From positions 1 through 62,490 of the forward strand of contig JAIQFV010000028.1 in the NCBI GenBank assembly GCA_020073085.1: 62,490 nt of DNA. The letters run 5' to 3'. Shown in pieces: positions 2,542 through 15,077 of the stretch. The notes below the pieces were generated by a model. That model was not told the DNA's origin. It did no database searches and worked only from the letters and a program-made list of their open reading frames with translations. This DNA is from Terriglobia bacterium. Its GTDB lineage: Bacteria > Acidobacteriota > Terriglobia > JAIQFV01. Position numbers and translations under genes: made by a program. Each line of letters starts with the position of its first letter. The first letter of the stretch is position 1.

Positions 2542-4518
2542 ATGGAGAACAACACCGTTGCAGGTTCACATGGCTCTCGATCCGATGAGGACACATTCCC
2601 CAAACTCCAATCGAAGACTTGGGGTAAGGAAATCCTGTCAGGTCCGCGCGTAACCAGAGCCCTGCGGCACGACAGCTCTTTGGAGCGAAGACGACTCCGT
2701 CTCATGAGCTCATTCTTGTCCTTGGTCTTCCTCTTCCTGGCGCATGGGTCGTACGGCCAGGAGCCCCGGGCACAGATCAGTCTACAGATCGACCGGCTTG
2801 AACACGCCATGAAATCCGCTCCCGCCTCCGATTCGTCCGCGGATGAAGCGGCAAGCCTTCAACAGGTCCGCAAAGCTCTCGATGCCGGGTACGTGTACGC
2901 CAGCCTGTACGGCCTTGAGCCGGCCATGCTCAATATCGCCACCCTGCAATACACCCTTTCCAAAGTCGGCCTGGAATCCAAGGGCCTGGAGGCCTTTGAA
3001 AAGGAATGGCAAAGGGTGGGCACGCAACTGAAGGCGGAAGAACAAGGCTTGACCGACGCGAAACTCTCGTCGCTCCCTTCAGCGGTGAGAGCGATGGTTG
3101 AGGCCGCCCAGGTGCAGAGCCGCACCTATTACCAGGCGGCCCGGCTGTATGGCCGGGAAACCACCCCGCAATATGGACTGCAGTACGTCGGCCTTTCCAA
3201 AGGGTATCTCGACTTTGCCGTCTGGTGTGCCGATTTGCAGTTTCCGAAGAGCCCGGCGTGGAAGGGCCATTCCCCCGGAAATGATATTGCGGGGCTGGAA
3301 AAAGAAGTCATCCGAAACTACAGTCAACCCCAGGCTTTGAAGCAGAATGAGGAGTTCATTGGGATCAACTCCCGCCTGAACTTCGCCAGGGAACTGGACA
3401 AACAGGGGAGATGGGAAGGCGCATTGCAGATCTACTTGAACGCGTCACTTGCCTATGGCCTGATCAACCCGCCCTCAGCAGGGGACTTGCAGCTCGGCGC
3501 GTTGCAAGAGGAAAGCAAGGGCCTCCGAAACCGTCTGGCCGCCGGCCACCTTGACTGGAGCCTCGGTCAAATGTACTGGGAAATCGCCCAACTCGATTTG
3601 GAGGGACAGGCGGACAAGAAGATGGACAAGGCGGACGCCATTCATGCCGGCGTCATTTTGAAGGAGGTTTTGCCACGGTACCTGAGCTACCTCGAGCACA
3701 GCGCTCCGACGGCCTCCGCCACTCCGGCCGCCGCTCAAGTCACCGTCACGCTGGTCCGCTGGCCTTACACTTGACATCTCTGCGATCCGGCAAGTTTGCT
3801 GGCACAGGACGTCATCCAGCGGTACGGTGACCGGGTTCGATTCGTAAGCGAGAACTGGGGAAGCTCGAAACAGGCCGATCGTTTTGGCTTGAAGCGGTAT
3901 CCCGTGGTGTTTGTGAACGACGTACTTCTTGCACGCTCCGAGGATTTTGGCTGGTTTGGCGCGAAAGGCCGCTACACGCCCTGGCTCAAGCTGGAAAATC
4001 ACGAGAAATTCAAGAAGGACCTGACTCACATGATTGATCTGGAGCTCAAGGGAGATAGGCGAGCGGCCCTCGAGGCGCAGTCGCCGGCCTCACAGGAGGA
4101 ACTCGCGCGGCTCCCTCAGCTCAGCGCGAAAGACCTGGCCGGGTCGACCGTCGACGCGGCCTCCTTGTCGGGGAAGCTCGTCGTGGTGGAGTTCTGGGCC
4201 ACCTGGTGTCTGCCCTGCCGGTCTACCCTGCCGTGGTTGGGGGAATTGAAACGACGGCACGGGGATAAGATCGAAATCCTGGCAATCGCCGTGGACTCGG
4301 AAGAATCTGAAGTACGGAAGCTCACGCAAGCGATGGGCCTCCCTTATCACGTCGTCCTGGGCAGCGCGGGGTTGGCGGAATCGTTCGGCGATCTCAGCAG
4401 CGTCCCGACGATGTTCATTTTCAGGCCCAACGGCACGACCGCGTCCATCCTTTACGGCGCTCCCCAGGACTTGCACGACCGTGTCAGCCATGCGATCGAC
4501 GCCTTGCTTCGGGAATGA
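2542..4518 (+). CDS. secreted double-thioredoxin-fold protein with in-frame UGA (candidate selenoprotein, UxxC)
   Basis: ATG 2542 follows AGAGGAG with good spacing. An N-terminal charged stretch leads to a hydrophobic signal segment at residues 55-72; M55 (2704) is an alternative start. Residues about 75-395 are mostly helical and unrecognised. At 3772-3774 a TGA interrupts the frame, and the same frame resumes with HLC and then a complete thioredoxin-fold domain, with cis-proline loop RYPVVFV (Pro454). Reading UGA as selenocysteine gives Thr-Sec411-His-Leu-Cys414, a UxxC redox motif exactly where CxxC is expected. A second thioredoxin domain of the TlpA/ResA type follows (WCLPC, Cys556/Cys559; VPTMF cis-Pro loop). 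A hairpin compatible with a bacterial SECIS lies after the UGA. The total would be 658 residues. The alternatives are a nonsense mutation or a sequencing error; translation restart at TTG 3796 has no ribosome site and would lose the active site. The protein is likely an extracytoplasmic thiol/selenol oxidoreductase. Confidence 0.75.
3775..3809 (+). promoter_or_regulatory. putative bacterial SECIS hairpin
   Basis: Immediately after UGA 3772-3774, CCGGCA (3787-3792) pairs with TGCTGG (3797-3802), including one G-U pair, around loop AGTT. A lower stem TCTG/CAGG (3779-3782 with 3805-3808) extends it. The loop starts 18-19 nt after the UGA. Counting the U of UGA as 1, loop bases 23 and 24 are G and U, the same positions as the SelB-contact G23/U24 of the E. 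coli fdhF element. The bulged U17 of fdhF is not present. Pairing was done by eye. Confidence 0.55.
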
Positions 4519-12414: not shown

Positions 12415-13722
12415 CTACTTCGCGTCCTTCGGCAACTCCTTGATCGTGTTTGAAATCCTTGCGAGGTTGCGGTCGCGTGCTTGTTTGCCACCAATGGACC
12501 GGGCAGACTGTAATGCCTCTTCGAGGACGCGGCGAGCTTCCGCGGGCCGTCCCCCCTGAGTCAGCGCATCGGCCTTCGTTTCAAACAGCCAGGTCCGGCC
12601 CAGTGGACCGCTCACGTGCACCAGGCCGCGATCGCATGCCGCGATGGCCTCGTCATATTGTTTGGCTTCGATCTCCATCTGGGCGAGCCGCAGTGACGCG
12701 TTGTAGTTGGTCGGCATGGCGCGTTCCGAGGCGATCAGTGCCGGCAGCACGCGCGATGCCGCCCCAAGGAAATACGCTGCGTCAACGCGGGCAATATCGA
12801 GGGCGGATCGCTCGTCCTCGTTGGCGGGCCGGGTCGCCTCGAGCTCGTCCAGCCAGCGTTCGCCCCACCGTGCCACGGTCGCCTTATCGCCGTCCATTTC
12901 AGCGGCGTGCATGAGCTGCTGATACAGCTGAAAGCGATGATCGCGCAGCGTCGCCGGAAGCGCAATCGCCTCCTCCGCGAGCGGCCTAAGAGTCTTCCGC
13001 GGGGCTTCGGCCCACGGAGCCTGTTGACCCCCGTTCACACACATCAATCCTGCGAGAACGACTCTTCCAAACATTTGGCCGCGCGCCATCGACGCCGCTT
13101 CCTTGGCGGCCGTTTCGGCGCAAACCTGCGATTGTCCACTCAACATCAGCGCCCAGGTGTCCGATCCGACTGCGCGCTCGCGCTGTGGCCAAGTCTTTCC
13201 GCCGAGGCGAAGCCCCTCCTCATAGGCGGCTGCCGCCCCGGCATGCTGGCCGCGGGCGAGCATCTCGTCGCCCCGCGCGAGCGCCGCGTCGGCGGGCCTT
13301 CCCGCTTTTGCGATGACGCCGTGCTCCCCTCGGTCGAGGAATTGCGTCAGCTCGGGCAACGTCATCCCCCCGAGCTGCGTTGCCGACGTCCGTTCATCGG
13401 CGGGGTCGATCACGAAAAAAGACGGTGTGTACATCACCCCGTGCCGGGCGAGGAACGATTGATTGACCGGTTTATCAAAATTGAGTTCGAGCCAGACGAA
13501 CCGTCCGGCGTACCTGGCGAGGCTGGCGTCGGCCAGCGTGGCTCGCATCAGGCGGCACGAATATCACCACGGGGCCCACACTTCGACGAAGACGGGCAGC
13601 TTCTGGCGCGTCGCCTCGGCGAGCGCCCGGGTGTAATCGTCTTCGATGAACGGCAGGCGCGTGGTTGCGGTCGCCGACGTCGTTAGCACCGAAAGCAACA
13701 CCCACAAAGAGAGTTTCTTCAT
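12415..13722 (-). CDS. secreted thioredoxin-TPR protein with in-frame UGA (candidate selenoprotein, WAPWUxxC)
   Basis: ATG 13722 follows GGAGGAG with ideal spacing. A signal peptide (MKKLSLWVLLSVLTTSATA) leads to VFVEVWAPW, then TGA (13566-13564), then YSCRLMRATLAD in the same frame. Read as selenocysteine, the site is W-A-P-W-Sec53-Tyr-Ser-Cys56, the thioredoxin WAPWCxxC motif with the first Cys replaced. The fold continues with VWLELNFD and the cis-proline loop MYTPSFFVID, then TPR-like helices from about residue 150 to the end (435 residues). The internal ATG 13548 would give a protein lacking signal peptide and active site, with no ribosome site. It is divergent from a MocR-type regulator. 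A long hairpin follows the UGA. The alternative is a nonsense mutation, but a hit on exactly this codon in two genes of one window is unlikely by chance. Confidence 0.82.
13513..13552 (-). promoter_or_regulatory. putative bacterial SECIS hairpin
   Basis: Reading the minus strand after the UGA at 13566-13564: CCTG (13552-13549) pairs with CAGG (13516-13513), GCGAG with CTCGC, and GCTGGC (13537-13532) with GCCAGC (13527-13522), closing loop CGAC. All 15 pairs are Watson-Crick; unpaired bases (AT, CCAC) lie only on the 5' side. The apical loop starts 33 nt after the UGA and has G as its second base, which fits the published loose consensus for bacterial SECIS elements (loop 16-37 nt after UGA, G among the first two loop bases). 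Found by eye. Confidence 0.55.
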
Positions 13723-13817
13723 TCTGCTCCTCCACGGCCGGAGATGGTAAAATGGGATCGGTCTGTTTACAAGATCCGATTTCGATCTCCAGAATGGACC
13801 ATTTGGAGGATCCCCTC
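13723..13817. promoter_or_regulatory. divergent promoter region between the thioredoxin-TPR selenoprotein and the MocR-type gene
   Basis: Only 95 bases separate the two divergent start codons. The centre contains ATCGG-N14-CCGAT (about 13754-13777) and repeated GATC cores (GGATCGG, AGATCCGAT, CGATCTCC), the type of repeated half-site that MocR/GntR proteins often bind. Operator function is inferred. Confidence 0.35.
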
Positions 13818-15077
13818 ATGCGCCGATCACGGGGTGTGCTTCTGCCGCCGGTCCGCGCCGCCGGACGGCTGCGGCGCGGCGACGTGTATCGCGCGATTCG
13901 GGCCGCAGTGCTGGACGGCGTTCTCTCTCCCGGCGAGCGGCTCCCCTCGACGCGGCAGGCTGGCGCTGATTATGGCGTCTCGCGCGGAATGCTGGAAGAG
14001 GTCTACGCGCAGCTGACCGAAGAAGGGTTTATCGAGCGCGCCGTCGGACGCGGCACGTTTGTCGCGCCGACGGTCGAACGGCTGAGTACGCCTGTGAATC
14101 GAAAACCGGGAGAGCCACGAGTGCTCCGGCCGTCGCGCCGCGGCCAATCAGCCGCCGCGAATGCCGCCTGCCGCGAGCCGGCGGTTCCAATCCCGTTCAA
14201 TGCGGGCACCGCCGACACAAGCGAGTTTCCATGGATGCTGCTCGTCGATCGCGGCGATGCCGTTTGGATCGAGGATCCCTGCTACCTGGGTGCACGCGCC
14301 GCCTTTGCGCTGGCCGGCGCGGCGATCATCCCGGTGCCCGTCGATGACAAAGGCATTCGCGCCGACCCCAGGGCTCGCCGTTCCTCACGCGCGCACCTGA
14401 TCTATGTGACGCCTTCGCATCAGTACCCGACCGGCGTGGCCCTCAGCCTCGAGCGCCGCATCGCCCTCCTGGAGCTGGCAGTGCAAAATGACTCGTGGGT
14501 CGTGGAAGATGATTATGACGGCGAGTTTCGGTATGAGGGGCAGCCGCTCACGGCGCTCCATTCGCTCGACTCCCACGCGCGCGTGCTCTATATCGGCACC
14601 TTGAACAAGTCGATGTTCGTTTCGCTGCGCCTCGCTTATGCCGTTGTGCCCGAGGAGTTGCTTGAACCCCTGGCAAACATTCGGACCCAGCTCGACGGGT
14701 TCACGCCCGCGGTGCAGCAGATGGCGATGAGCGTCTTCATGGACGAGGGCCACTTCTCTTCGCACTTGCGCCGCATGCGCGCCGTGTACGGGGCGAAACG
14801 TGCCGCCCTGGTCGAAGGACTGGCGCCGCTTGCTGCGCTCGGCTGGACGTGGTCGAACAATTCCGCCGGCATGCATCTCCTGGTCCGCCACCAGCGAGGC
14901 GACTATGTACGGGCCGTCGCCGCGGCGAGTTCCCTCGATCTGGCGCTGCTCAGTACTTATCGCGTCGCCCGGACGACGGACGACGGACTGTTTCTTCGCT
15001 TCGGCGCGCTCGACCGGGCGAGTCTCAGGGCTGGCGTTACAGCCCTCGTCGCGGGGGCAAAGAAGCTGAGCCGATAA
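13818..15077 (+). CDS. MocR-type (GntR HTH plus aminotransferase-like) regulator with internal deletion
   Basis: ATG 13818 follows TTGGAGGATCCC. Residues about 15-80 form a GntR winged helix (YRAIRAAVLDGVLSPGERLPSTR, DYGVSRGMLEEVYAQLTEEGF, GRGTFVA). The rest is a fold-type-I aminotransferase domain with VWIEDPCY, YVTPSHQYPTG, WVVEDDYDGEFRY, and YIGTLNKSMF carrying the PLP lysine. Compared with the family, the segment normally lying between the FP...W part and VWIEDP (about 60-70 residues containing the RG...ITxGxQQALDL region) is missing: SEFPWMLLVDRGDAVWIEDP runs directly on. The 419-residue protein may therefore be defective in ligand binding. It is divergent from the selenoprotein gene, a likely former target. 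Confidence 0.8.
   Translation: MRRSRGVLLPPVRAAGRLRRGDVYRAIRAAVLDGVLSPGERLPSTRQAGADYGVSRGMLEEVYAQLTEEGFIERAVGRGTFVAPTVERLSTPVNRKPGEPRVLRPSRRGQSAAANAACREPAVPIPFNAGTADTSEFPWMLLVDRGDAVWIEDPCYLGARAAFALAGAAIIPVPVDDKGIRADPRARRSSRAHLIYVTPSHQYPTGVALSLERRIALLELAVQNDSWVVEDDYDGEFRYEGQPLTALHSLDSHARVLYIGTLNKSMFVSLRLAYAVVPEELLEPLANIRTQLDGFTPAVQQMAMSVFMDEGHFSSHLRRMRAVYGAKRAALVEGLAPLAALGWTWSNNSAGMHLLVRHQRGDYVRAVAAASSLDLALLSTYRVARTTDDGLFLRFGALDRASLRAGVTALVAGAKKLSR

Follow-up and report, generated by a model that had tools for sequence, protein, structure and literature searches.

The closest solved two-domain structure to the protein described here is CnoX/YbbN, a cytoplasmic chaperedoxin in which a TPR domain likewise follows an N-terminal thioredoxin domain. 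CnoX carries an SXXC or CXXC motif and cooperates with GroEL/ES and DnaK in the cytoplasm; in Caulobacter CnoX the CXXC site is active (PMC8129009). Selenocysteine-containing thioredoxins and Trx-like UxxC selenoproteins (PF00085, PF13098) have the same fold with Sec in the first position of the CxxC motif (PMC13188914). Many UxxC thioredoxin-like families appear in the main text of that inventory, where no description of the PF00085 and PF13098 entries speaks of exported Trx-TPR fusions and where TPR, tetratricopeptide and Acidobacteria do not occur (PMC13188914). The term tetratricopeptide does not occur in the text of the 2022 selenoprotein inventory, and a literature search combining selenoprotein, tetratricopeptide and thioredoxin returned no report of such a bacterial protein.

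Two other described selenoproteins resemble ours in part. Here the window is the whole stretch of DNA analysed, 62,490 nucleotides, which is contig 28 of a 5.8 Mb genome that is 98.7% complete. The rhodanese/DsbD-like selenoprotein TsoB (NF045694) weakly matches the thioredoxin domain of 27 of the 28 members of our family (best E 1.1e-11), but the window protein scores 17.2 of 805 bits, far under the curated cut-off, and has a TPR domain instead of the rhodanese or DsbD membrane part. The Trx7/PDZ selenoprotein (NF041199) has a Thioredoxin_7 type domain and gives a weak match to 17/28 members, but it pairs a CxxU motif (PMC13188914) with a PDZ domain, whereas the window family combines UxxC with TPR. 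No NCBIfam model (June 2026) scores the window protein over its cut-off. Set against NCBIfam and the main texts of the inventories, the sequences appear to form a new selenoprotein family of a known kind, one that may have been sighted earlier without being named.

Translation of 13722-12415 on the minus strand gives a frame of 435 codons whose sole internal stop is a TGA. It stands at the first catalytic Cys position of the thioredoxin active site, VFVEVWAPW-U-YSCRLMRATL. The preliminary description had proposed this arrangement, a single UGA in WAPWUxxC of an otherwise continuous frame, and the translation bears it out. The ribosome binding site and signal peptide that it placed upstream are found as well, the former at 13733-13727 and the latter by inspection. 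As it also anticipated, a standard ORF call opens at ATG 13548, so that the signal and the active site are lost. The features are as follows.

13727..13733, minus strand: GGAGGAG ribosome binding site, 4 nt ahead of the ATG (sequence)
12415..13722, minus strand: predicted selenoprotein gene encoding a signal peptide, a UxxC thioredoxin domain and a TPR solenoid, 435 residues, TAG stop (frame, profile matches, model)
13663..13722, minus strand: signal peptide region, residues 1-20 (seen by inspection; modelled at low pLDDT)
13321..13659, minus strand: thioredoxin domain, residues 22-134 (profile matches, AlphaFold2 model, structure alignment)
13564..13566, minus strand: in-frame UGA, codon 53, putatively read as selenocysteine (same codon TGA in 25 genes, TGC in 3)
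13555..13557, minus strand: Cys56, the invariant resolving Cys of the UxxC motif (family alignment)
13512..13553, minus strand: hairpin directly 3' of the UGA, candidate SECIS, 16 pairs, beginning 10 nt after the UGA (folding, shuffles, covariation)
13528..13531, minus strand: apical loop CGAC of the hairpin, 32 nt from the UGA (spacing)
12436..13308, minus strand: TPR-like helical solenoid, residues about 139-429 (profile matches, AlphaFold2 model, structure alignment)
13120..13122, minus strand: Cys201, nearly invariant, in the TPR part, on the first of two helices that form a helical hairpin (alignment, model)
13039..13041, minus strand: Cys228, invariant, in the second helix of the same helical hairpin (alignment, model)

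The divergent neighbour at 13665-15077 (+) encodes a regulator of the MocR type, in which GntR is joined to aminotransferase class I/II. As listed, the start of this neighbour falls within the selenoprotein gene, and its true start is probably later. No neighbouring gene recurs across 21 neighbourhoods of the family, and gene order therefore points to neither a partner nor a substrate.

In profile searches the read-through protein matches Thioredoxin_7 (PF13899, 37.4 bits, cut-off 27), Thioredoxin (PF00085, 29.7 bits, cut-off 23.5) and several TPR models. An AlphaFold2 model calculated from a 28-row family alignment (pLDDT 92.6, pTM 0.88) shows a thioredoxin domain and a long helical solenoid. 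The predicted thioredoxin fold is unbroken across codon 53, with pLDDT above 90. Pro100 is invariant in the family and, by inspection, sits where the cis-Pro is expected. Cys201 and Cys228 lie in adjacent solenoid helices of the model and could be disulfide partners or a second redox pair.

Structure comparisons clarify the relationship to CnoX. The best two PDB matches in Foldseek are the Trx-TPR proteins YbbN/CnoX of Salmonella (3QDN) and E. coli (3QOU), both with E about 7e-6. The VIA-align listing is headed by TPR domains and thioredoxins, each matched separately; the thioredoxin domain aligns with thioredoxins at Z 14-16 and also with exported relatives, DsbH and the DsbD C-terminal domain. 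CnoX is absent from the best 50 VIA-align matches, which proves nothing. Superposition of the whole chain on CnoX is poor (TM 0.21-0.32, rmsd 24), and only the domain order is therefore shared. The window protein differs from CnoX further in its UxxC motif, its longer solenoid (about 290 residues) and its signal peptide, recognised by inspection. The resemblance of its N-terminus to a signal peptide argues against a CnoX-like cytoplasmic location. Export is also supported by three homologues (L044, L052 and L053) in which a lipobox-like Cys (LxxC) ends the hydrophobic N-terminal stretch.

Homologue searches covered the order, the class, the phylum and one large family. They yielded 25 distinct genes, counting that of the window, that are complete or nearly so in length and each contain one TGA, always at codon 53. 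These genes come from many families of Acidobacteriota, with identity to the window protein dropping to about 32-37% in the more distant members and with UYSC, USSC, USTC, UHTC and UHSC as motif variants. Three homologues (L030, L041 and L043) have TGC at codon 53 and the motif CHSC. Whether UGA alternates with Cys among homologues is the classic test for a Sec codon. In a maximum-likelihood tree the three Cys rows are scattered within the Sec tree and require 3 changes, at least two of which are forced by well-supported branches; one genus holds both a UGA-form gene (L042/G488) and a Cys-form gene (L030/G449). The homology test of the UGA column suggested by the preliminary description thus gives TGA in 25 genes and TGC in 3.

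The genome has the machinery to read such a codon. Profile searches detected selA (563.3 bits, cut-off 268), selB (390.9 bits, cut-off 242) and selD (375.7 bits, cut-off 125), and both Rfam and ARAGORN found a tRNA-Sec with anticodon UCA. The Sec machinery that the preliminary description had suggested looking for is therefore present. The selD gene itself has one internal TGA, in the frame ...VKAAG-U-AAK..., at the usual catalytic Sec position of SelD, so SelD itself requires UGA recoding. A strong canonical hairpin with the loop GGA 20 nt downstream of the UGA is found in this selD gene (L018 1501-2427, contig 2). In the class as a whole, selA is common regardless of the Trx-TPR gene (15/18 checked non-carriers have it), and co-occurrence with selA is thus weak evidence. 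No selA match was found in two genomes carrying the UGA form, G572 (locus L029; 99% complete but in 490 contigs) and G856 (L061; 83% complete).

A stable hairpin is predicted right after the UGA. The preliminary description had given it 15 pairs, the loop CGAC and a distance of 33 nt from the UGA; the loop holds, its first base lies 33 nt after the UGA, and the stem has 16 pairs. The region 13566-13505 folds with an MFE of -27.5 kcal/mol (z -2.56 against dinucleotide shuffles). We also folded 54-nt stretches along all 25 genes and compared them with synonymous-codon shuffles that preserve the protein. The stretch immediately 3' of the UGA has a mean z of -2.0 over the 25 genes, the global minimum of the scanned positions; the means of all scanned offsets average -0.28 (sd 0.36), and the next lowest is -1.03. 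The z values come from related sequences and are not independent, but the position is still singled out exactly. Covariation was also proposed as a check, and its outcome differs between subgroups. In a 16-gene subgroup, 17 cells show double changes against 8.1 in shuffles (0/500 as high), and the score is best at slide 0, slid versions having fewer paired cells and a lower score. Covariation is not significant in the subgroup of nine genes to which the window gene belongs, and the pairs there are mostly invariant or one-sided. The RNAalifold consensus of the whole groups is weak because the inner stems are shifted by a base from one sequence to the next. The hairpin is stable and is selected beyond coding needs.

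How the hairpin relates to described bacterial SECIS elements is less simple. No Rfam match in the window reaches the gathering score. The published bSECIS model requires G in the first two loop positions, a loop 16-37 nt from the UGA, an upper stem of 4 or more pairs and an MFE of at most -7.5, and a subset of bacterial elements falls outside it (PMC13188914). The loop rule is satisfied by the window gene (CGAC), by the selD gene and by a second UGA gene in the window. In MFE folds, only 5/25 UGA genes of the family fit the rule, compared with 29% of background positions. The rule does not discriminate here, and we dropped it as evidence. The hairpins of most members misfit it, and this gene set can help to widen it.

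This misfit counts for near-cognate readthrough, in which the UGA would be decoded as Cys or Trp without selenium and both truncated and full-length protein would be made. So does the leakiness of UGA as a stop codon in bacteria. The selected RNA structure right after the UGA, and a Sec machinery that already serves selD, make selenocysteine far more likely, and we regard selenium-free readthrough as very improbable.

Decay of the gene deserves similarly little credence. A nonsense mutation in a degenerating thioredoxin-TPR gene would also leave an in-frame stop, and the family can decay: genome G385 retains only a C-terminal remnant of the gene (L027 1501-1893), with selA still present. The intact family genes, in the UGA or the TGC form, have no further internal stop, whereas stops scattered elsewhere in relatives had been named in advance as the sign of decay. 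The TGA stands at the same codon in 25 genes diverged to about 32-37% identity. Purifying selection acts before and after it: compared with an 86% relative (NG86), dN/dS is about 0.14 before the UGA (0.081/0.557) and about 0.23 after it (0.079/0.348), so both sides are kept as protein. Conservation of the UGA at one codon leads us to reject decay. The earlier argument that a random nonsense mutation is improbable can be sharpened, since the same codon is UGA in all 24 other UGA-form genes and both flanks are under purifying selection, which excludes chance.

We judge it equally improbable that the UGA is a true stop, with a cytoplasmic TPR protein starting at ATG 13548 and a leader or an unrelated short peptide upstream. 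The start codon a few codons past the UGA, the one used by gene callers, would suit such an arrangement. Met59 is conserved, however, in the Cys homologues as well, and a true stop leaves three observations unexplained: the UGA/TGC alternation, the invariant Cys56 ahead of ATG 13548, and the thioredoxin fold that continues unbroken across the site. A changed genetic code, with UGA standing for a standard amino acid (Trp or Gly), could be suggested by the three genes of this genome in which UGA is read through, but we reject it as practically negligible, since UGA is the commonest terminator in the window (14/25 long ORFs), TGA also terminates several members of the Trx-TPR family, the alternative residue at the UGA column is Cys rather than Trp or Gly, and tRNA-Sec and SelB are present.

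Codon 53 UGA is thus very probably read as selenocysteine. The central proposal of the preliminary description, a selenocysteine codon in a secreted Trx-TPR protein, is supported by the machinery and by TGA or TGC at the same codon in relatives.

The companion gene with an in-frame UGA that it had mentioned is also found in the window. Its UGA is at 3772-3774 (+) in TLVRWPYT-U-HLC, ahead of a TlpA-like domain with FWATWCLPC, and the gene ends at 4518. Homologues keep the UGA: six class members (L086-L091) share its position, and nearly all have a hairpin with a 4-nt loop 18 nt downstream of it. Conservation does not extend to the resolving Cys, as distant members carry UNIS or USLS as their motif. 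From this sequence conservation, the gene is a predicted second conserved selenoprotein.

A simple mechanism can be proposed for the Trx-TPR protein. SelB would bring Sec-tRNA(UCA) to the UGA at codon 53, guided by the hairpin 10 nt downstream, and selenocysteine would take the place of the attacking Cys of ordinary thioredoxins. The protein would cross the inner membrane by means of its signal peptide. Most likely, the product is an exported thiol-disulfide oxidoreductase with Sec as the attacking residue. Its UxxC site would probably act as a reductase or isomerase, the selenolate attacking a substrate disulfide and Cys56 resolving the selenenylsulfide. We consider the exported oxidoreductase role likely. 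By analogy with Trx-TPR proteins of the CnoX type, the TPR solenoid might bind clients or partner proteins; we give the client-binding role an even chance.

A more ambitious interpretation, which we think rather unlikely, is that the protein is a periplasmic Sec chaperedoxin, an exported CnoX counterpart widespread in Acidobacteriota. The solenoid would hold clients, and the selenolate would repair or shield their thiols. This interpretation includes SECIS elements of a class whose apical loop is distant and in most cases without the canonical G, and the same SelB would read both this class and the canonical selD element.

The family is likely missed by annotation, because gene callers start past the UGA and no NCBIfam model scores over its cut-off. 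With the predicted selenoprotein, the selenium-dependent proteome of a major soil phylum gains a redox protein that is probably exported. The 25 Sec and 3 Cys versions, with one Sec/Cys pair within a genus, form a natural set for asking what is gained by selenium at a thioredoxin site that would lie outside the cytoplasm.
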